A stretch of 64,000 bases of DNA from Desulfobotulus pelophilus (GTDB taxonomy: Bacteria; Desulfobacterota; Desulfobacteria; Desulfobacterales; ASO4-4): the NCBI RefSeq assembly GCF_026155325.1, contig NZ_JAPFPW010000007.1, positions 62,001 through 126,000 on the forward strand, written 5' to 3'. Shown one piece after another: positions 22,198 through 60,470 of the stretch (position 1 is the stretch's first letter; the number at the start of each line of letters is the position of its first letter). The position numbers and the translations under genes were made by a program. The notes beneath the pieces were generated by a model. The model ran no database searches and was not told the DNA's origin. It saw nothing but the letters and a program-made list of their open reading frames with translations.

Positions 22198-22259
22198 GAT
22201 ATTGTAAGGAATATACTTGGTACGAAGACAACTTCAAGACTCAAAAAAAGGAAAAAATC

Positions 22260-51133: not shown

Positions 51134-52402
51134 CTACAGCGGCGGCGCATTCTGAATGGCACGAAGGTGGGCCAGAAGCCGTCCCGCTTCCTCTCGGGCC
51201 TTTTTATCCCTTTCAGGAATACGTTCAAGAAACTTTCTGGCCATTTCCGGCTCACCGGCCTTATAAGCACAATAGCCCAAAGTCAACAGCATGCGGCTGT
51301 TATGACCTTGCCCCTTGTGTCCGTTCAGGTAGCGTACCCCGGCATCCATGGCCTCTCTGTAACGGTTTTCTCCCATATGGATGGCCATGGCCACCTCAAA
51401 AAGGGCCGGATCCGCAGCCTGCTTCAACCCACCCTCAATTCTCTGCAGTGCTTTCTCATTCTGCTGGGCTGCCTGCAACATCTGCACTTCCCGTACAAGA
51501 AGCCTCGGGCATCCATCGCCCTTTTCCTGGGCCGTAGCATAGGCTGTTGCTGCCCTTGCCGGAAGATTGAGATTGGCATAGAGATCGCCCAGCAGGCGGT
51601 AGTCCGACGCCTTTGGCTCCCCCTCCAGAGCCAGTCGGATTTCCAGAGCGGCAGCTGCTTTTTTATAATCCTTTACCCGAAGATACAGATGGGTGGCCAG
51701 TTCCCACATCCCCCTGTCCTCCGGCTCCCGGTCCAGTATCGCTTCCAGAAGAGCAATGGATTTTCTTTCATTGCCCGTTTCCATGGCCGCCTGGGCATGG
51801 GCACGGACCCACTCCTCCCTGGGATGGTCATCCAGCTGCATCAGGCGATCCAGACGCTGCCATGCCGCAGCTGAATTCTTATCCATCAGATAAAACAGAC
51901 CGCTGTGGTATAAAAGCGTACCTTTTTTCTCTTTGCAGGTTTCCCATGCCCTTTCCATGGCATGGGCCGCCTCTGAATAAGCCTTTGCATCATGGGCTGC
52001 TATGGCAAGATTCTGCCAGATCCGGCTGTCTTCAGGAGCCAGTTTCACCGCCTTTCTGTAAGCAGTGAGGGCCGCGGCACTATCCTCCAGCTGCAGCCTC
52101 GCATTACCTAGCCAGAAAAAGAGCAGGGGATGCTCCATCTCCGGATTTTTCTCATAAAAAGCTTCCAGCTTTGCAAGGGCTTCGGCAGGCCGTCCTTCTC
52201 CCATATCCAGCCCAGCATCCGCCAGTACCTGCTGCAAAGAACGGGGCAGGGGTCTTTCCGGAGATGCTGTGACAAGGCCCTGCAGACAGAATACAAAAAA
52301 AAGGAAAAAGAGAAGGAGAAAAGGGTTCAGCCCCCTTTTGTGCCTTTTGTGGGCATAAAAAGGGGCTGAACCCTTTTGTGGGTTTTCCATTATTTTTTCC
52401 AT
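51134..52402 (-). CDS. TPR-repeat protein, last gene of the TonB2-type operon
   Basis: 422 residues from the ATG at 52402, which overlaps the tonB stop (TGATG) and has GGAGG upstream. A hydrophobic N-terminal helix (NPFLLLFFLFFVFCLQGLV) anchors or exports it. The rest is about nine tetratricopeptide repeats (for example PEDSRIWQNLAIAAHDAKAY). Such TPR proteins end TtpC-TonB2 clusters in Vibrio and related bacteria and are thought to support energy transfer to receptors. Residues about 9-26 (KGSAPFYAHKRHKRGLNPF) are encoded by the palindromic repeat described separately. Confidence 0.85.
   Translation of the reverse strand: MEKIMENPQKGSAPFYAHKRHKRGLNPFLLLFFLFFVFCLQGLVTASPERPLPRSLQQVLADAGLDMGEGRPAEALAKLEAFYEKNPEMEHPLLFFWLGNARLQLEDSAAALTAYRKAVKLAPEDSRIWQNLAIAAHDAKAYSEAAHAMERAWETCKEKKGTLLYHSGLFYLMDKNSAAAWQRLDRLMQLDDHPREEWVRAHAQAAMETGNERKSIALLEAILDREPEDRGMWELATHLYLRVKDYKKAAAALEIRLALEGEPKASDYRLLGDLYANLNLPARAATAYATAQEKGDGCPRLLVREVQMLQAAQQNEKALQRIEGGLKQAADPALFEVAMAIHMGENRYREAMDAGVRYLNGHKGQGHNSRMLLTLGYCAYKAGEPEMARKFLERIPERDKKAREEAGRLLAHLRAIQNAPPL
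52321..52376 (-). repeat. In-frame palindromic element, copy B (TPR gene)
   Basis: Arms AAGGGTTCAGCCCC and GGGGCTGAACCCTT form a perfect 14-bp inverted repeat within the first 27 codons of the TPR gene. It encodes a peptide like copy A, with three extra residues (HKR duplicated). Confidence 0.8.
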
Positions 52403-53124
52403 CAGTTTCCTCCAAGCTGAAAACGGATAGGGGTTACCACCCATGCCGCTACTCTGCGGCCTTCCATCACCGCTGCTTCAAACCGCCAGTTGGATATGGC
52501 CTGAATAACCGCATCCTCAAAAACGCCTTCAGGATCGGCTTCCAGTACATGAATGTTCCGGGGTACACCATCCGTACCCACCAGAAACCGTACCCGAACC
52601 CAGCCCTCAATGCCCATACGCCGGGCACGGAAGGGATAAATCGGGGGTGTCTGCACCATGGTTCTCGGGGCAACATCTACCTCCCCTGCTTCGAAGGTCA
52701 TGGGGCCGGCCGGAGGCGGCGGCGCAATGGCAGGTCCTGGCACGGCGGAAAGACGGAGATCCGGCGTAAAAGGGATGGGCTCCATCTGCGGAACCTCTGG
52801 CAAAGGCCGCTGCATAATCTGCTCCATGGGCACGTCAGGCTCCGGAGGTTTTTCTTCCGGAGGCTTGGGCGGCTCCGGTTCAGGCTCCGGCTCCGGTGGC
52901 CGAAGATCCCTTAACTGCACAGACACCATGCGTTCCAGGTCCGAAGCATCGGGCGGCGGCCCGATCATCCAGGGAACCATGGCAAAAATTCCCAGGGTAA
53001 CCAGAAGGGCCAGTCCCGTGGCAGTCACATAGACAAGGACGGATCTGCCGAAAAACGAGCCTGACCCCTTTTCCGGGTATAAAAGGGCGCTGCCCCCTTT
53101 TTCTTTAAGGGCTTTTGGTGGCAA
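52402..53124 (-). CDS. tonB: TonB-like energy-transducing protein
   Basis: 240 residues: N-terminal membrane anchor (YVTATGLALLVTLGIFAMVP), a Pro/Glu-rich periplasmic spacer (residues about 70-120), and a TonB C-terminal domain at about 155-240 (IYPFRARRMGIEGWVRVRF; AVIQAISNWRFEAAVMEGR). The start must be upstream of the anchor and no ATG or GTG is there; TTG at 53124 with AAAGGA nine bases before it, inside the exbD 3' end, is best. TonB passes proton-motive energy to outer-membrane receptors. Residues about 9-24 come from repeat copy C. Confidence 0.87.
   Translation of the reverse strand: MPPKALKEKGGSALLYPEKGSGSFFGRSVLVYVTATGLALLVTLGIFAMVPWMIGPPPDASDLERMVSVQLRDLRPPEPEPEPEPPKPPEEKPPEPDVPMEQIMQRPLPEVPQMEPIPFTPDLRLSAVPGPAIAPPPPAGPMTFEAGEVDVAPRTMVQTPPIYPFRARRMGIEGWVRVRFLVGTDGVPRNIHVLEADPEGVFEDAVIQAISNWRFEAAVMEGRRVAAWVVTPIRFQLGGN
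53051..53102 (-). repeat. In-frame palindromic element, copy C (tonB)
   Basis: 52 bp aligning without gaps to copy A with 42 identical positions, but with the inverted repeats degraded. It encodes KGGSALLYPEKGSGSFFG at the start of TonB, just before the membrane anchor. Confidence 0.7.
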
Positions 53125-53515
53125 TGCTCACATCCTTTGCCCGGGCCAGCCGACAGTGGTCCAGAATTTCCACCACAATACCCGTGTCTGTCTTTTTATC
53201 CGCCACAATGACCACAGAAGCTTCCGGCATCTCTGCCAGTGCCCTCTCCACCCGGGCCCGTACACTTCGCATGTCTATGGCTTCCTTATCCATAAAAATT
53301 CCGCCTGCGGCATCCACGCCAATGAGAATACTGCCCTGCTCCTTGAGATCACCGGTGCTGGCCGTGGGACGGTCCACATCAATACCCGTTTCCTTCACAA
53401 AACTTGTGGTGACAATGAAAAAAATCAGAAGAAGAAAAATCAGGTCGATAAGGGGAGCAATATTAATGTCACTTCCCTGATTTCTGGCCCGAAGGCTCTG
53501 GCGTACGTTAATCAT
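53105..53515 (-). CDS. exbD: ExbD/TolR-family energy-transduction protein
   Basis: 136 residues from the ATG at 53515, which overlaps the exbB stop (ATGA). A single membrane helix with the essential proton-carrying aspartate is visible: DINIAPLIDLIFLLLIFFIV. The periplasmic domain includes IGVDAAGGIFMDKEAIDMRS and VVIVADKKTDTGIVVEIL. It forms the ion channel with ExbB and drives TonB. The longer open frame upstream overlaps exbB and is not used. Confidence 0.93.
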   Translation of the reverse strand: MINVRQSLRARNQGSDINIAPLIDLIFLLLIFFIVTTSFVKETGIDVDRPTASTGDLKEQGSILIGVDAAGGIFMDKEAIDMRSVRARVERALAEMPEASVVIVADKKTDTGIVVEILDHCRLARAKDVSIATKSP

Positions 53516-54111
53516 CGAAGCTGCCTTTCCAGCATGGCGTACAGACGATCCAGACGATAGGTGGCCCTTCTGGCCTGTCTTGTCAGATACATGGCCATGA
53601 TAATGCCGGGAATGGCCACCATAAGACCGCACTGGGTGGTGACAAGAGCCTCGGAAATACCGGCGGCCATGCCGCGGGCATCCCCTGTCCCGGCAAAGGC
53701 CATGACATCAAAGGTAACAATCATTCCCTTTACCGTTCCCAAAAGACCAAAAAGGGGAGAAACCGCTGCCAGAACCTGAATCTGAGGTATCCCCCTGTTC
53801 AGATCCCTCCGGATCCGAAGGCCGCACTCCCGAAGAATACTCCTGTCCAGCATGCAGATGCCGCTTCTCCGGCTCCTGAAATCCTGAATCAGCCGAAGGG
53901 ATAACCCCTCCCCACAGGGAAGGGTACGGCTGCTGTCCAGGGCCATACCCACAGCCGTATCCGGCGGCAGATCCTTGACCAGAAGGCGGCGGAAAAAAAA
54001 CAGCCTTTCAAAAATACCCGCCCACATAAGAAGACAGACCAGGGCCAGGGGCCAGAGAATGCCTCCTCCTGCGGAAAGATGGCTCAGGATATCCTGAAAA
54101 CCCGCCATCAT
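53512..54111 (-). CDS. exbB: ExbB/TolQ-type proton channel subunit (ExbB2-like)
   Basis: 199 residues with three membrane helices. N-terminal helix GGGILWPLALVCLLMWAGIF followed by ERLFFFRRLL. The conserved MotA/TolQ/ExbB core is ISPLFGLLGTVKGM-like (VSPLFGLLGTVKGMIVTFDV) and GISEALVTTQCGLMVAIPGI. The start overlaps the upstream ttpC stop by four bases. This short form without periplasmic extension is typical of ExbB2 in TonB2 clusters. Confidence 0.92.
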   Translation of the reverse strand: MMAGFQDILSHLSAGGGILWPLALVCLLMWAGIFERLFFFRRLLVKDLPPDTAVGMALDSSRTLPCGEGLSLRLIQDFRSRRSGICMLDRSILRECGLRIRRDLNRGIPQIQVLAAVSPLFGLLGTVKGMIVTFDVMAFAGTGDARGMAAGISEALVTTQCGLMVAIPGIIMAMYLTRQARRATYRLDRLYAMLERQLR

Positions 54112-55604
54112 CCCTGTATCCTCCCTTTACAGCAGGAAGGCAGACTGTGCTCTCGGGTGAGGGTATTGCACAGGGCCACGGCCTTTTCCTCCATATCCCC
54201 CACAATATGCTCCACCCTGCGGGTGAGAAAGGTGTGGATCAGGGTAATGGGAATGGCCACGGCCAGGCCAAACATGGTAGTGGCAAGGGCCTCGGATATG
54301 CCGCCGGACATCATGCGCGGATCTCCCGTGCCAAAAAGGGTTATGGTATGAAAGGTTCGTATCATGCCCGTAACCGTACCCAGAAGACCAATCAGGGGAG
54401 CAATACCCGCCATGACATTGAGCATGGGAAGGAAACGCTCCAGCCGGGGAAGCTCTCGCAGAATGGCTTCCTGCAGAATACTTTCCAGGGTTTGCCTGTC
54501 TTCCTTCCTTCCTCCCAGACCGGCAATCAGGATATTAAAAACTGGCTTGCCCTTTCCGGGTTGAACCGTAGCATCGCAGGCTTCCCAGTTTTTTTCCGCA
54601 GCCAGTTCGTTGACCCGACCCATGACCCTGTCCGCATTGGTGTGAACCTTATGAAGAAACCAGATCCTTTCCAGAGTGACCAGAAGCGCCACAAGGGCTA
54701 TAAAAAGAATGGGCCAGACCAGAAAACCACCGCTCTCCACCTGACTTTTCAGGGTGGAGCGGTGCAGCACCTGCTGCAGGGCGGCTCCCTGTGAGATATC
54801 CATGGAAAGGGAATCACTTCTGCCATCCATATAGGCGCCGAGGCTCTTTCGGGCCGAACGGGAAGGCTCCCGTCCCAGCATCTGGAACCTGCGGTTTTCA
54901 GGCAGATAGTGCAGGTAACCCACGTTTCCGTTCTCCGCACGGAAAGCGGCGGTAAAGGGGCCCAGAGTCAGGATTTCCGATGCCATAAGCTGCCCGCCTG
55001 CTCCCAGAATCTCTCCCCTTTCCAGACGCACAGCCCCCGTTTTTAGCACCTCGCCAAAAAAGCCCTCCACAATCACATCAAAATCTTCCATGCCAGCAAA
55101 GCGGCCGGCATCGAGAATACGGCGTACCGGTTCCAGCCGGGTGGGTTCACTGGCCGTAAAGGGAGATTCACTCAGCATGGCATCCAGCTCACGGGCAGCC
55201 GAACGCAGGGTACCCGAAACGGCTTTCATGGCAGATACGGTAACATCCCGCTCTCCGGCCAGGGCTTCCCTCTTTTCCATAAGGACTTCCACAGTGCTTT
55301 CCAGTGCCGACCTTTCCTCCGTCAGCCTGTTTTTAGCCGCCGTGAGCTCTGCAATTTTTGCTGCCAGCTTCTCCCGGTCCGCAAGGATCTCCCTTCTGGT
55401 TTCCCTGGCTTCAGCTTCCGCAGCAAGACGCGCTTCCCTTGCCTGTACGGATATGGCCCGCATGTCCGAAGAAATAGCCGTCACGGGAAAAAGAAAAAGA
55501 AGCAGAAACAGCAGGCAAAAGCAAAAAGAGCAAAAAGAGCAAAAAGGGGTCAGACCCCTTTTGTGGGCATAAAAGGGGTCTGACCCCTTTTTATTCTTAC
55601 TCAT
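54108..55604 (-). CDS. ttpC: TtpC-like MotA/TolQ/ExbB protein with periplasmic coiled coil
   Basis: 498 residues. Hydrophobic signal or anchor at about 22-45, a long coiled coil at about 50-125 (EARLAAEAEARETRREILAD), a mixed periplasmic domain, then a second membrane helix at about 297-315 (LVWPILFIALVALLVTLERI) and the ExbB core (GIAPLIGLLGTVTGMIRTFH, GGISEALATTMFGLAVAIPI). TtpC is the extra ExbB-like component essential for TonB2 in Vibrio. The cysteine/phenylalanine-rich stretch after the repeat (SFCSFCFCLLFLLLF) is unusual. N-terminal residues 5-21 derive from palindromic element copy A. Confidence 0.87.
   Translation of the reverse strand: MSKNKKGSDPFYAHKRGLTPFCSFCSFCFCLLFLLLFLFPVTAISSDMRAISVQAREARLAAEAEARETRREILADREKLAAKIAELTAAKNRLTEERSALESTVEVLMEKREALAGERDVTVSAMKAVSGTLRSAARELDAMLSESPFTASEPTRLEPVRRILDAGRFAGMEDFDVIVEGFFGEVLKTGAVRLERGEILGAGGQLMASEILTLGPFTAAFRAENGNVGYLHYLPENRRFQMLGREPSRSARKSLGAYMDGRSDSLSMDISQGAALQQVLHRSTLKSQVESGGFLVWPILFIALVALLVTLERIWFLHKVHTNADRVMGRVNELAAEKNWEACDATVQPGKGKPVFNILIAGLGGRKEDRQTLESILQEAILRELPRLERFLPMLNVMAGIAPLIGLLGTVTGMIRTFHTITLFGTGDPRMMSGGISEALATTMFGLAVAIPITLIHTFLTRRVEHIVGDMEEKAVALCNTLTREHSLPSCCKGRIQG
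55541..55592 (-). repeat. In-frame palindromic element, copy A (ttpC)
   Basis: A perfect 22-bp inverted repeat (55541-55562 with 55571-55592) around GTGGGCAT; each arm contains its own smaller palindrome, AAAAGGGGTC-type. It begins about 12 bp after the start codon and encodes KKGSDPFYAHKRGLTPF in frame. Confidence 0.9.
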
Positions 55605-56377
55605 GGCAGAATCCTCCCTACAGGCAATGTCACCAGTTCCGGCGCCCGTTTCCGGGTGGCCACGTCAAAGGCCCTGGCAAAGGAGGCATCCCAGGACGCT
55701 TCCAGCGGCTGCCACCTCTTTTCGCCTGCATCATAGTATCCGACCCTGCCGTCTCCCGTTCGGTAAAAAAGTCCCAGGCGCCCAAGGCGCAGTACCTGAG
55801 CCAGCACCTCATCCTGCCCCAGCTGCAGGGGAATCCGGCCAAGCTCCACCGTAAAGCCATAGTCCGCTTCTATGCGGAGAGCTTCCATGATACGCCGCAG
55901 ACGTTCTGCAGGGCCCGCATCCGGATCCACCATAAGGTCCTGAAGCATGGCAAGCCTCTGGGTCCGTTCTTCCTCAAGGAAAGGCAGGTCCGAAGCCATG
56001 GAACCCTCCAGCCGGAGCAGAACTTCATCCAGCCTCCCGTCCAGCTCATCTTCCAATCGCCTTGCTTCCATAAGCTCCCGTTCAATGGCAGCCACATCCC
56101 GTTCCAGATGGTCTCTGGACCGGGAAAGCCTGTCACGGTCCCTCCCAAGACGCCGGTTTTCCTCTTCAAGGCTTTCCATACGACTCAAGAGCTCTCTTCT
56201 CTCCCTGGCCCATGCTTCACGGGCCTTCTGGGTTCCGGCTTCTGCCTCCATGCCTTTTTCGTGCTCTTCCATGACTGCCTTCGGCCGACTGTCACCCATG
56301 ACAAAGCCCGGAGCATGGAGCAGCAAAACCAGAAATCCTGCCATTACAGACTTTTTTATAACCATAGAAATTCTCAT
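55601..56377 (-). CDS. DUF3450-family periplasmic protein, first gene of the TonB2-type operon
   Basis: 258 residues (or 254 from the ATG at 56365). Signal peptide (VMAGFLVLLLHAPGFVMG), then a long coiled coil at about 40-115 (RELLSRMESLEEENRRLGRD) and a compact C-terminal domain (LFYRTGDGRVGYYDAGEKRW). DUF3450 proteins precede TtpC-ExbB-ExbD-TonB2 clusters and probably work with the periplasmic part of TtpC, which has a similar layout. The stop overlaps the ttpC start by four bases. Upstream 229 bp are AT-rich and hold the operon promoter. Confidence 0.85.
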   Translation of the reverse strand: MRISMVIKKSVMAGFLVLLLHAPGFVMGDSRPKAVMEEHEKGMEAEAGTQKAREAWARERRELLSRMESLEEENRRLGRDRDRLSRSRDHLERDVAAIERELMEARRLEDELDGRLDEVLLRLEGSMASDLPFLEEERTQRLAMLQDLMVDPDAGPAERLRRIMEALRIEADYGFTVELGRIPLQLGQDEVLAQVLRLGRLGLFYRTGDGRVGYYDAGEKRWQPLEASWDASFARAFDVATRKRAPELVTLPVGRILP

Positions 56378-56606: not shown

Positions 56607-59600
56607 ATGGTCGCAGCTGTCCGCCCCATAAACATGTCACCCCCATCATCTCCCGTCGGTAATACGGACCGAAAGGGAGACAGGGATGACTATAGCCTCA
56701 CGGCAGCGGACACTCTTTTACAGAATACGGGCCAGAGACAGCAGTGGCAGAACATCCGCCAGAACAATGACGCCCTTGCCAGAAAACTGGCTCCCTTGCT
56801 TATGGAAAGAAACGCCATGCTGGCAAAGGCCCGGGATGGGGAGACCATCCGCTGGAGCCACTTTGACACACTCACGGCAGAACTCGGCAGGGCGGGCATT
56901 CATCTCTGGGATCACAATGCCCTTCTGGCTTCAGGGTGGCAGGCAGACAGCATGCCGCACAACCATGTATCAGGCAATGGAAGCCACCGTTCTGGACCTG
57001 CGGCCCCCACCGTTCCCCTTCCTTCCGCATCCGAAATGACCCAGGCCCGCTCCACGGGCCTTTTCCCTCAGAGCATACTCCCTCCCACCGCCCCCATGGT
57101 GCCGCAAAAAGAAGAACCAGCTCCCTCTACGGAACCGGATTTCCTTGTGCTCAATGCCACCTGGGAACGACACACCCTGGCTTCCGGCCTTGGTGCCTAC
57201 GGAAACCCGGACCAGCTGTTCATGCCTCTGGGTGCTCTGGCTGCCATTCTGGAAGTGCCCCTGCGGGTCAGTCCGCAGACAGGAAAAGCATCAGGGGAAG
57301 TTCTGGGGAAAAACTTTGAGCTGAACCTTGAAGAAAAAACCATCACCCTTGGCAGAAAAACCCAGACAATACCTGAAAATGCCATCATCCATGATGAAGA
57401 TGATATTCATATTGATGCCAAGGTACTGAAAGAGTGGCTGCCCCTGGATTTTGATTTCAGCTTCAGGGAGATGGCCGTCAGGCTTCAGCCCAAAGCAACG
57501 TTTCCCTTTCAGGAACGCATCGAAAGGCAGCAGCGCTGGAACCGTCTCGGCTCTTTCGATGGCACGGCAAAGCCTTCCATTCTGGATGAAAAAACAAGAC
57601 CCGCCTTTGTCAGCCTGCCCGTGGTGGATCTTTCCCTTTCAGCCTCCCACCACAGCCGGGACAACAATCCCAGACAGGCCAGCTATACCCTTTCCGGGGC
57701 AGGAAATCTTGCGGGAGGAACCGGGCATTTCTATGTCCGGGGAGATGACACCCATAACCCAAGGCGGGTGGAAGCCCGTTTTGAAAAAACGGATCCTTCC
57801 GGCTCCCTGCCTCTGGGGGCAACCCGCTTTGCCCTTGGAGATGTATCATCCCCTTCCCTTCCCATACTGGGCCGGGCTGGTACTGCCCAGGGTATCCTTC
57901 TGGAAAACCGGTCCTTATATAAAGAAAGGGAATTTGACAGCACCCGTTTTGAAGGCAATCTGGCGCCGGGATGGGAGGTGGAACTATACCGTGGAACGGC
58001 TCTCATGGATGTGCGCAGGGTAGGAGAAGATGGCCGTTACCTTTTTGACGATGTTTCCCTTTTCTATGGAACCAATGATTTCAGGCTCATTTTCTACGGT
58101 CCCGAAGGGCAACGCCGTGAGGAAAACCGCAGACTGGAAGTCGGCACGGATATGCTGCCCAGAGGACAGATGACCTACAGTGCCAGCCTCACCCGACAGG
58201 ACAGAGTCACCTATGAAGAAAACCAGTCCCGCAACAACGATGCGGGTAATGCCGCTGGCGTCGGAGCAATCGAATACGGTCTTGGAGAACGAACTACCCT
58301 TTCCGCAGGCTTCATGAGCGACACATTCGGAGAAGAACGCCGCACGCGGCTGCAGGCCGGTATGGAGACAGCCCTTACGGGTGCATCCTTACGGGTAGAC
58401 GGAGTGCACACTGTGGATGGCGGCAGTGCCCTGCGCCTTGGCAGCCAGACAGCCCTGAATGATCATCGTATCCGCGCCAGTGTGCAGCTTCAGGACAAAC
58501 TGGAAGGTGACCATGTCACCAACCCTGTCCGCAGCATCAGTGAACTTTCTCTCTACGGCACCCTTGGAAAACAAGATGGCTTCCGTCTTCCCTATACCTT
58601 ATCGGGCCGCTACACGGACAGGGATGACAGCTATGAATCCCGAATCAGCCTGCTGAACAGCCTTCGTACAGGAGCTGTACACTGGAACCACAGAATCAGC
58701 CATGACTACAACAGTGCAAGCTCACGGCCGGAAAGTATTCAGGGAAGCCTTCATGCCTCCACCCGGATGCAAAGCACCCATATCCGCGCCCATGGTGATT
58801 ACCGTCTGGATGACTACGAAAGGGGCTTTACCGGAGCAGGCCTCACCGCAACCCGCCATCTTACAAGGGATCTTGATATTCAGGGCAGCCTGAACCGGGA
58901 TTTTACCGGCACAGGGCGTACATACGGGGATGCCCAGCTTAATCTGAGAAAGGATAAACTCAGCATCAGCCCCGGAGTATCTGCCGATGACCGGGGTGAC
59001 TGGAGCGTTTCCCTGAACATGAATATGGCTCTAGGGCCTGATCCGCACAGACAAAGCATTCGCCCCTTACCCAGAAACTCCAGTGCCCAGGGCCTTGCTG
59101 CCGTACGGGTATTTGAGGACGCCAATGGTAACGGGATTATGGACGGTGAAGAAAAGGGTCTTGAAGGGGTGAGGGTACGGGCCGTGCAGTCCGGCAGCAG
59201 GGCTGTGACGGACAAAGACGGCATAGCCTTTTTGCAGCTGTCTCCCCACCAAAAAACCGATATTGTAATTGAAGAAGAAAGCCTTGAAGACCCGGCCCTT
59301 TACCCCCTGCATCCAGGAGAGGCCGTATCTCCGAGACCAGGAGAAGTTCGGCCTTTATCCCTGCCTGTAATCCGCACAGGAGAAATTGACGGCACTCTCT
59401 ATGGTGTGAACAGTTCCGGTGACTCTGTACCCCTCAGGCAGGTTGAAGTCCTCCTTACAGACAAAAAAGGCACGGTAGTGGACAGAGTGCTGTCCGAATA
59501 TGACGGCTTTTATCTGTTTGAACGGGTCAAACCTGGACAATACACGGTAAAAGCCCTCCTATCTCAGGATAACGGAACGGTTCTGACAAGGAGCCTTGCC

Positions 59601-60470
59601 ACAAAGATAGATGAAACGGGCAGTATCGAAAGTGGCCTTGACATGGTCCTGAAGACGCAAGACAGGCCAGAAACAAAAGCATCAGCCCCTGGACCGGTGC
59701 CGGAGGAGGATGAATATGTACTCTTCCGTGAGGGCCGGTGGACAGACAGCCCCGATCCACAGACCCTGCCTGCGACCAGACCCCTGTTTGATGGTCCGGA
59801 AGCCGTGCTGTACAGAGAAGGAAGCTGGGTTCCGGGGAGCCTGGGAGCCGTCCCGGCCTTGCAGGGCCTGACGGAAAACAGAATTCTTTTTGCAGCAGAG
59901 GGCCGGAAGGAAGAAGAAATCCAGACAAAAAAAAACCAGCCTTCTGCCATTCAGCACAAAAGCCCCCTGCACGGCAGGATATCCCGCTACGGGGTTCATG
60001 CAGGCTCCTACCGGAGCAGAGAAAAGGCCCTGGAAGGCATACAATGGGCCAAAGACCACATGCCTGAGTTGAACAGCCTCGAAGAGGCAAGGATTCAACC
60101 CGTGGATCTGGGGGAAAAAGGTCTCTGGTACAGGGTAGTTCTGGGTGCTTTTGAAAACAGGGCTGCTGCGGACAGCCTGGCTGCTGTCATGGCCGAAAAA
60201 TCGGGATACGGCAGGGTTCTCACGGCAGGCAGTAAAGAGGAAACGGCCGTTCATCTGGCAAGCTATACGGATATAAAGGACGCGGAAAAGGGCATCATTC
60301 TTCTGGAAAGGCAGTTCCGCACCCTCATGGGTAACAATCTTTCCATGGGTATCACCAAGGAAGGCAGCAGCTACAGAGTCGTCGTACAGAATTTTAAGGT
60401 TCTGGAAGATGCGGAACAATTCAGGCAAAAAGTGGCGGATATGGGTGGATACGCAAGGATCATCGGGTAA
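56607..60470 (+). CDS. Usher-like outer-membrane barrel protein with SPOR repeats
   Basis: 1287 residues, no visible signal peptide. Order: helical segment (about 28-110), Pro-rich linker (about 115-170), an usher-type N-domain (about 180-310: QLFMPLGALAAILEVPLRVS, WLPLDFDFSFREMAVRL), a beta-rich barrel (about 315-840) of FimD/PapC-like type, a calcium-like loop FEDANGNGIMDGEEKGLEGV starting an SdrD-B fold (about 850-920), a second such domain (about 935-1010), and at least two C-terminal SPOR-like repeats (about 1130-1287: YGVHAGSYRSREKALEGIQW, YRVVLGAFENRAAADSLAAV). It faces a chaperone/DUF4402 operon and is its probable secretion pore. An in-frame stop lies just upstream, so no longer N-terminus is possible in this frame. 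Confidence 0.8.
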   Translation: MVAAVRPINMSPPSSPVGNTDRKGDRDDYSLTAADTLLQNTGQRQQWQNIRQNNDALARKLAPLLMERNAMLAKARDGETIRWSHFDTLTAELGRAGIHLWDHNALLASGWQADSMPHNHVSGNGSHRSGPAAPTVPLPSASEMTQARSTGLFPQSILPPTAPMVPQKEEPAPSTEPDFLVLNATWERHTLASGLGAYGNPDQLFMPLGALAAILEVPLRVSPQTGKASGEVLGKNFELNLEEKTITLGRKTQTIPENAIIHDEDDIHIDAKVLKEWLPLDFDFSFREMAVRLQPKATFPFQERIERQQRWNRLGSFDGTAKPSILDEKTRPAFVSLPVVDLSLSASHHSRDNNPRQASYTLSGAGNLAGGTGHFYVRGDDTHNPRRVEARFEKTDPSGSLPLGATRFALGDVSSPSLPILGRAGTAQGILLENRSLYKEREFDSTRFEGNLAPGWEVELYRGTALMDVRRVGEDGRYLFDDVSLFYGTNDFRLIFYGPEGQRREENRRLEVGTDMLPRGQMTYSASLTRQDRVTYEENQSRNNDAGNAAGVGAIEYGLGERTTLSAGFMSDTFGEERRTRLQAGMETALTGASLRVDGVHTVDGGSALRLGSQTALNDHRIRASVQLQDKLEGDHVTNPVRSISELSLYGTLGKQDGFRLPYTLSGRYTDRDDSYESRISLLNSLRTGAVHWNHRISHDYNSASSRPESIQGSLHASTRMQSTHIRAHGDYRLDDYERGFTGAGLTATRHLTRDLDIQGSLNRDFTGTGRTYGDAQLNLRKDKLSISPGVSADDRGDWSVSLNMNMALGPDPHRQSIRPLPRNSSAQGLAAVRVFEDANGNGIMDGEEKGLEGVRVRAVQSGSRAVTDKDGIAFLQLSPHQKTDIVIEEESLEDPALYPLHPGEAVSPRPGEVRPLSLPVIRTGEIDGTLYGVNSSGDSVPLRQVEVLLTDKKGTVVDRVLSEYDGFYLFERVKPGQYTVKALLSQDNGTVLTRSLATKIDETGSIESGLDMVLKTQDRPETKASAPGPVPEEDEYVLFREGRWTDSPDPQTLPATRPLFDGPEAVLYREGSWVPGSLGAVPALQGLTENRILFAAEGRKEEEIQTKKNQPSAIQHKSPLHGRISRYGVHAGSYRSREKALEGIQWAKDHMPELNSLEEARIQPVDLGEKGLWYRVVLGAFENRAAADSLAAVMAEKSGYGRVLTAGSKEETAVHLASYTDIKDAEKGIILLERQFRTLMGNNLSMGITKEGSSYRVVVQNFKVLEDAEQFRQKVADMGGYARIIG

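Follow-up and report, generated by a model that had tools for sequence, protein, structure and literature searches.

A REP-like palindrome family of Desulfobotulus that is probably read as N-terminal coding sequence in three genes of a ttpC-tonB operon

In a stretch of 64,000 nucleotides from Desulfobotulus pelophilus (contig NZ_JAPFPW010000007.1, positions 62,001 to 126,000; the window in the following), three genes of one operon, namely ttpC, tonB and a gene for a tetratricopeptide repeat (TPR) protein, carry a palindromic element near their starts. We consider it probable that these copies belong to a genus-wide family of the REP/REPIN type (repetitive extragenic palindromes) of the kind mobilised by RAYT or TIRYT transposases, that the cognate transposase has decayed, and that the operon copies are tolerated as N-terminal coding sequence. 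The palindrome is a feature of the DNA and not of the peptide. An earlier interpretation, made from the letters of the window and here called the sequence-only reading, had located the copies at 55541-55592 (ttpC), 53051-53102 (tonB) and 52321-52376 (TPR), and all three were recovered at these positions.

Results

Distribution of the palindrome

The repeating unit is a 21-bp palindrome, AAAAGGGGTCAGACCCCTTTT, which is self-complementary over 21 bp except for the centre base, and each operon copy consists of a pair of such units. The perfect 22-bp inverted arms described for the ttpC copy are present. The ungapped alignment of the ttpC and tonB copies (42 of 52 bases identical) and the 14-bp inverted repeat of the TPR copy were reproduced in their numbers, but the labels 'B' and 'C' given to these copies were swapped with respect to the order in which they had been listed. 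For the TPR copy, the perfect inverted repeat grows to 16 bp if the stretch 52315-52382 is considered.

With up to three mismatches, the 21-mer has nine strand matches in the window, compared to none in any of 100 shuffles. The whole genome, a draft of 3.66 Mb whose contig C7 contains the window, yields 34+35 strand matches that represent 37 distinct places, 16 of them exact, while the reversed pattern used as control gives 0+1 matches. At up to two mismatches, the 21-mer was found in 3 of 58 relatives searched, which are exactly the three Desulfobotulus genomes (G000, the own genome, and the two congeners G001 and G002, all of them drafts), and in none of the 55 other genomes of the same order. 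This agrees with the proposal of a dispersed, mobile-looking element. In a sample of 395 genomes of the phylum, a 19-bp core (up to one mismatch) occurs in nine including the own genome, which has 43 strand matches; the next highest numbers are 10 and 5, and the eight other genomes mostly have one or two matches each. The exact 21-mer was also found in four stretches from two viral contigs. A plasmid search with the ttpC copy returned three records, including the lead to Rhodospirillum rubrum, and the search for a phage source gave merely weak partial matches to four Lactococcus phage records (E 6).

Within the genus, copies are located in prophage-like contigs as well as at chromosomal gene junctions. 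The prophage-like contigs are C41 of the own genome, with tail tape-measure and antirepressor genes, and C22 of G001, with a tape-measure gene; further contigs share stretches with these two. Some contigs of the own genome break at or near a copy (C41:6361-6374, which ends inside one, the end of C5 and the start of C26), and the draft may therefore under-count the copies. Among 84 units, 40 are preceded by T and 48 are followed by A, and the flanks are devoid of a GTAG or CGTC tag.

Position relative to gene ends

Gene ends were predicted with a home-made, simple codon-hexamer caller. Thirty-eight of 71 copy groups of the three genomes, which are not independent since they include orthologues and prophage paralogues, fall on the downstream side of a predicted stop, in the interval from -25 to +50 bp, which takes in 5.9% of random positions. 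Sixteen groups are near a predicted start (8.1% of random positions), and twelve of these are by a stop, too. The sites of G001 and G002 originate from the search with two mismatches and the own sites from that with three; 28 of the 30 own groups were used, leaving out two isolated places with three mismatches, C9:126035 and C5:25526. The element was thus described too narrowly as one of the 5' ends of genes, which holds for the operon, whereas the family as a whole is found mainly at or just behind stops, also those of unrelated genes. In the operon, the distance from the preceding stop to the copy is 9 bp behind the DUF3450 gene, 3 bp behind exbD and 24 bp behind tonB. Because the genes of the operon overlap, these three 'start' insertions follow the behind-stop rule as well. 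A few copies may lie inside small predicted open reading frames (ORFs) of the congeners; the well-supported coding copies are those at protein ends.

Comparison of the three species

The orthologous junctions of the operon differ in their number of units, with 2/1/1 (own genome/G001/G002) at ttpC, 2/1/2 at tonB and 2/2/2 at TPR, the latter with spacings of 38/29/26. At the junction of two genes that we take to be carA and carB, judging from protein start and length, there is one unit in the own genome (C16:56070), two in G001 (C5:5155) and three in G002 (C5:114793), with a step of 29 bp, and carA takes its final residues and its stop from the element. Inverted pairs with an ATRCCCAC-like spacer are present at ttpC, TPR and carA-carB, and similar spacers are found in the pairs of four chromosomal junctions. 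For most of the 16 exact copies, the surrounding sequences cannot be aligned with one another.

Two pairs of filled and empty sites were found, G002:C52:2165 versus G001:C22:37717 and G001:C22:36900 versus G002:C52:1364. Both are prophage sites whose flanks are 91-98% identical. At two more sites the element is present in the own genome and G002, while G001 is shorter by the two centre bases (site C) or has no element (site D). In ttpC of both congeners, the single unit is followed by a second, unrelated palindromic repeat (the CCCCTCTCCC..GGGAGAGGGG family; CCCCTCTCCCnGAGGGAGAGGGG), inserted at G001:C3:192629 and G002:C15:70605 and translating to LTPGPSPRGRGE in G002. This repeat has 20 strand matches in G001, 13 in G002 and 3 in the own genome, where the control gives 1.

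Probable translation through the element

The frame from the upstream start is open through the element in all nine gene-species cases (ttpC, tonB and TPR in three species). The distance from this start to a conserved downstream point is a whole number of codons, with 129/174/189 bp for ttpC and 117/105/84 bp for TPR, counted in G002 from the later of two neighbouring ATG codons; the tonB translations run without a stop into GLALLVTLG in all three species. These open frames suggest that the element is probably translated, and from sequence we regard it as most likely that the operon copies appear as extra N-terminal residues of the three proteins. For tonB, translation most likely begins with a TTG at 53124, which lies within the 3' end of exbD and is preceded by a good ribosome-binding sequence, AAAGGATGTGA. 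In the predictions of the gene caller, the start lies past the element for tonB in each of the three species, and likewise for TPR of G001 and ttpC of G002.

A KGS-PF-type peptide had been ascribed to each copy. It is encoded in ttpC and TPR (as KGSxPF) of the own genome, whereas in tonB the frame of the first unit is a different one and gives GGSALL. The same unit of tonB reads KGADPF in G001 and GVRPLL in G002, and the first unit of TPR reads KGSxPF in the own genome and G002, but GVKPLL in G001. Since the same junctions keep the DNA with differing frames at TPR and tonB, it is the DNA and not the peptide that is retained. The sequence-only reading had named the same peptide with diverged DNA in distant TonB operons as the sign of a conserved protein feature. 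A six-frame reading of 20 outgroup loci, six of which have the TPR gene, found neither KGS[DAEN]PF nor KRG[QL]TPF, and outgroup TtpC proteins with a clear start open directly on the hydrophobic segment, e.g., MKSLTVLILVLFLACPVLAEDMR. Five of the six reading frames of the unit are open.

Link to a transposase

In R. rubrum, the palindrome closely flanks a transposase gene, P0001 (WP_011387744.1), on either side. The protein scores 77.4 bits with the NCBIfam model of REP-associated tyrosine transposases, just under the cut-off of 80. The own genome contains a remnant of such a gene at G000:C12:22261-22469 (L034:5262-5470), located between palindromes at 22239 and 22498. It consists of two adjoining pieces, 61% and 68% identical to the R. 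rubrum protein, covers the first 70 residues of the latter with one frame change and one stop, and ends at a palindrome shortly past the HIH motif. This motif corresponds to the HUH motif named in PMC3733652. Reading by eye suggests that the neighbours of the remnant are a type IV pilin-like gene and a two-gene toxin-antitoxin unit.

At class level, 175 of 291 genomes had matches, and 30 homologue loci were read for inverted repeats. In 19 of the 30, the gene is enclosed by an exact inverted repeat with a length of 12 bp or more, and the repeat contains GGGGWSAS in 12 of these 19.

Other Y1-type transposases were considered. The only Pfam Y1_Tnp match in the own genome is an IS200-type gene (C9:116572, matching the IS200 model). 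It was rejected as the mobiliser: the surrounding 16 kb hold no 21-mer with up to four mismatches, the one exception being the palindrome at C9:126035, about 9 kb away. For seven other Y1_Tnp matches (in G001 and G002), the 13-bp core (up to one mismatch) was found in none of the fetched loci. Besides, there is a second Y1-like family (MTYPRSTLISLESTPWYHCVCR...) with two or more copies per genome (Table 1). The core (up to two mismatches) is absent from seven of its eight loci; in the eighth, L164 of G002, it stands before a shortened copy.

Discussion

Proposed origin and persistence of the copies

We propose that the family would have spread by single-strand transposition while its transposase was active, RAYT and TIRYT proteins being single-strand transposases of the HUH type, and that copies settled or survived mostly right behind stop codons. 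Where the next gene of an operon starts at or before the insertion point (ATGA, TGATG and the probable TTG in exbD), the element would have become N-terminal coding sequence. The added basic stretch would become part of the cytoplasmic tail of TonB and, in the products of ttpC and the TPR gene, of the signal-peptide n-region. It may persist because five frames out of six are open and because n-region and tail tolerate changes of length and sequence, and a specific job for the peptide would not be required.

Several observations weigh against this explanation. In the three draft genomes of Desulfobotulus no intact cognate transposase was found, so that mobility is either historical or something that we infer. 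The palindrome itself is present in one of 19 homologue loci read for it, that of R. rubrum, and four genomes that hold the palindrome (G133, G248, G167 and G067) have no core in their Y1 transposase loci. Single units make up 53 of the 71 copy groups, compared to 18 with more than one, and in the tonB pairs of the own genome and G002 both centre bases have the same orientation. With 37 places, the family is at the low end for REP families. The extra DNA at the two filled sites amounts to 61 and 77 alignment columns including other sequence instead of clean insertions of 21 or 50 bp, and a target duplication, which along with terminal repeats matching an insertion sequence would mark a MITE moved by a DDE transposase, was not established at the two aligned empty sites. 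As regards position, 29 of the 71 groups are near no called stop or start, and the gene caller misses small genes. Finally, three groups within 3.3 kb would have a probability of about 0.008 if 28 groups were placed at random, which hints at local spreading or some retention.

Hairpins as possible regulators

The hairpins could have been kept because they regulate the operon. A strong stem-loop located 13-25 nt after the start codon, with T-rich codons of the signal peptide next to it, might slow initiation or act as a translation-coupled transcription attenuator and in this way set the ratio of the TtpC, TonB and TPR proteins. The predicted RNA hairpins are very stable at ttpC of the own genome (-52.4 kcal/mol, z -6.83) and at TPR in all three species (-52.2/-47.9/-50.4 kcal/mol, z -7.19/-4.78/-5.78 for own genome/G001/G002), and the tonB copy of G002 has a moderate one (-42.0 kcal/mol, z -3.34). 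A terminator-like pattern is flagged on both strands of the ttpC pair. Moreover, two positions of the own TPR copy are altered in both arms, which preserves the long stem.

Against such a function, tonB of the own genome and of G001 folds no better than shuffles (z -0.83 and +0.49), and ttpC of G001 and G002, with its one unit and the unrelated insert, does so not at all or only a little better (z -1.05 and -1.86). The paired changes concern 2 of 21 pairs of the long stem and come from a single sequence; the covariation measures of the long stem were matched by 17 to 30 of 500 shuffles, and in the separate small stems 1 of 18 pairs shows such changes. Template-switch repair of quasipalindromes would yield the same paired changes. 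In addition, unrelated genes have this element behind their stop codons, too. Altogether, we judge it unlikely that the copies are retained as regulators. According to the fold predictions, the tuning of translation considered in the sequence-only reading is possible at single sites, i.e., ttpC and TPR, and weak for tonB, but it would not be the shared reason for all three copies.

A more far-reaching idea combines both aspects, and we regard it as quite unlikely. A palindrome that settles behind stops would be a standing generator of N-terminal leaders in operons with overlapping genes; the three copies would have been kept through speciation because hairpin or leader sets the relative synthesis of TtpC, TonB and TPR protein, and the congeners would have swapped in the second palindromic family at the same place of ttpC.

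Alternatives: terminators or a conserved peptide

The palindromes could also be intrinsic terminators that work in both directions behind genes and have been multiplied by duplication of genes and exchange of prophages, without being transposable. Their form (an A run, a G+C stem and a T run) fits, as do the 38 groups at or behind predicted stops, the several copies in related prophage-like contigs and the mostly one or two core matches in eight other genomes of the phylum sample; the short viral contig L123 has one such palindrome directly after a TAA, the gene being read by eye. To our knowledge, unrelated terminators are not expected to have a common sequence, and here 16 copies are exact, mostly in surroundings that cannot be aligned. 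Neither the similar-spacer pairs at four chromosomal junctions, nor the copies within coding sequence inside an operon, nor the association with a transposase gene is in line with terminators, and we hold this explanation to be very unlikely.

In the window, TtpC and the TPR protein contain KGSxPF and TonB has a related version, which could suggest a conserved protein feature of TonB2-type systems. This is ruled out for practical purposes by the 20 outgroup loci without it, the changed frames and peptides at TPR and tonB of the congeners while the DNA stays, and the occurrence of the same DNA in prophage-like contigs and at the carA end.

Relation to known repeat families

A close likeness is to the TIRYT ('TIRtron') repeats around REP-like tyrosine transposases, whose motif is GGGGWSAS (Di Nocera et al. 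2013, PMC3733652; quoted in PMC6006769) and which are related to subclass 2.1 in PMC6006769. The part GGGGTCAG of our element fits this motif. It flanks the R. rubrum gene and the broken own remnant on either side, both being bounded by the palindrome itself. Self-complementary families of terminal inverted repeats have been reported (PMC3733652); here the unit is self-complementary over 21 bp, the cognate gene is a mere remnant and some copies are coding.

With REPs and REPINs (Bertels and Rainey 2011, PMC3116915) the family shares short palindromes, at some sites inverted doublets with a short spacer, and a transposase of the RAYT type. The palindrome is short, has many copies, is mostly extragenic near the 3' ends of ORFs according to the crude gene calls, and is associated with a transposase, in the own genome with the remnant only. 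There are differences, too: the copies count in tens and not hundreds, single units prevail, several copies are coding, and the stem-foot tag of the GTAG and CGTC superfamilies has no counterpart in the Desulfobotulus units. REPIN singlets are explained as remnants of doublets (PMC3116915), and many REP families comprise 20-100 units or fewer (PMC3733652).

REPs within ORFs, N- and C-terminal, have also been described, many inserts encoding 20-30 residues, as has the position behind stop codons, together with the warning that many N-terminal intragenic REPs may stay untranslated (PMC3733652). In-frame palindromes translated within proteins are common to these cases, to the Rickettsia palindromic elements (RPEs) and to the copies described here, and Di Nocera et al. 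count RPE-4 and RPE-6 among the REPs (PMC3733652). Small in-frame elements in general are treated together with RPEs in PMC2229807 and PMC10969869. The sequence-only reading had been reminded of RPEs. Those of the original kind are about 105-150 bp long (PMC2229807, PMC10969869) and have a conserved peptide (PMC10969869), whereas our element has 21 or 50 bp, another sequence and no conserved frame. Kinship with RPEs is thus rejected on size, sequence and frame, and motif and transposase remnant point to the REP/REPIN-TIRYT kind instead. Intrinsic terminators resemble the element in hairpin, T run and position behind stops, as judged from pattern and fold, but differ from it in that its sequence is common to many sites and copies lie inside genes.

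Of the core and peptide terms searched in the open-licence PMC literature, KGSDPF occurs in two papers, on human or animal Eps15 as judged by their titles and abstracts, and the other three, the palindrome core sequence included, have no match. Terms for TIRYT are found in two papers only, and none of the 19 papers that mention Desulfobotulus has the name in title or abstract. The new points are the family itself and its host, together with a comparison of three species that is unusually clear. It provides a compact natural case in which REP-like palindromes have moved out of intergenic DNA and probably become part of proteins; that the products are N-terminal leaders follows simply from insertion behind a stop in an operon of overlapping genes. 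For annotators it means that KGSxPF-type N-termini in Desulfobotulus are element-encoded.

The operon and its surroundings

The operon has the order DUF3450 gene, ttpC, exbB, exbD, tonB, TPR (Table 1). The N-terminal part of ttpC is DUF3450-like, with a score below the Pfam cut-off. For the TPR gene, the family search used an ORF longer by 14 residues. By sequence, the hydrophobic segment following the element in ttpC and TPR looks like a signal peptide.

Table 1. Genes and palindrome copies of the operon, and loci of the second Y1-like transposase family
Feature	Position	Strand	Details
DUF3450 protein, gene preceding ttpC	55601..56377	-	family search
ttpC	54108..55604	-	MotA/TolQ/ExbB domain, 498 aa
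ttpC start			ATG overlapping the stop of the previous gene (ATGA); Shine-Dalgarno-like GGGAGGA
Palindrome pair in ttpC	55542..55591	-	two exact 21-bp units, 55571-55591 and 55542-55562
Spacer of ttpC pair			8 bp, reads ATGCCCAC in gene sense
Peptide of ttpC pair			KKGSDPFYAHKRGLTPF, after MSKN
exbB/tolQ-type proton channel	53512..54111	-	MotA_ExbB
exbD/tolR	53105..53515	-	
Palindrome pair at exbD/tonB junction	53052..53101	-	decayed units 53081-53101 and 53052-53072, 3 mismatches each
Spacer of exbD/tonB junction pair			8 bp, ATACCCGG
tonB	52402..53124	-	TonB_C domain
TPR-repeat protein	51134..52402	-	422 aa, apparent N-terminal signal peptide
TPR start			ATG overlapping the tonB stop (TGATG); Shine-Dalgarno-like GGAGG
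Palindrome pair in TPR gene	52319..52377	-	units 52357-52377 (3 mismatches) and 52319-52339 (2 mismatches)
Spacer of TPR pair			17 bp, begins ATGCCCAC
Peptide of TPR pair			KGSAPFYAHKRHKRGLNPF
Second Y1-like family	G000:C4:132137, C11:62946; G001:C53, C60, C64; G002:C2, C9, C53		

The MotA/ExbB-type parts of exbB and ttpC are side-by-side paralogues, 53608-53771 and 54249-54412 being 70% identical over 164 bp. Divergent from the operon, a large ORF of 1287 aa occupies 56607-60470 of the window on the + strand.

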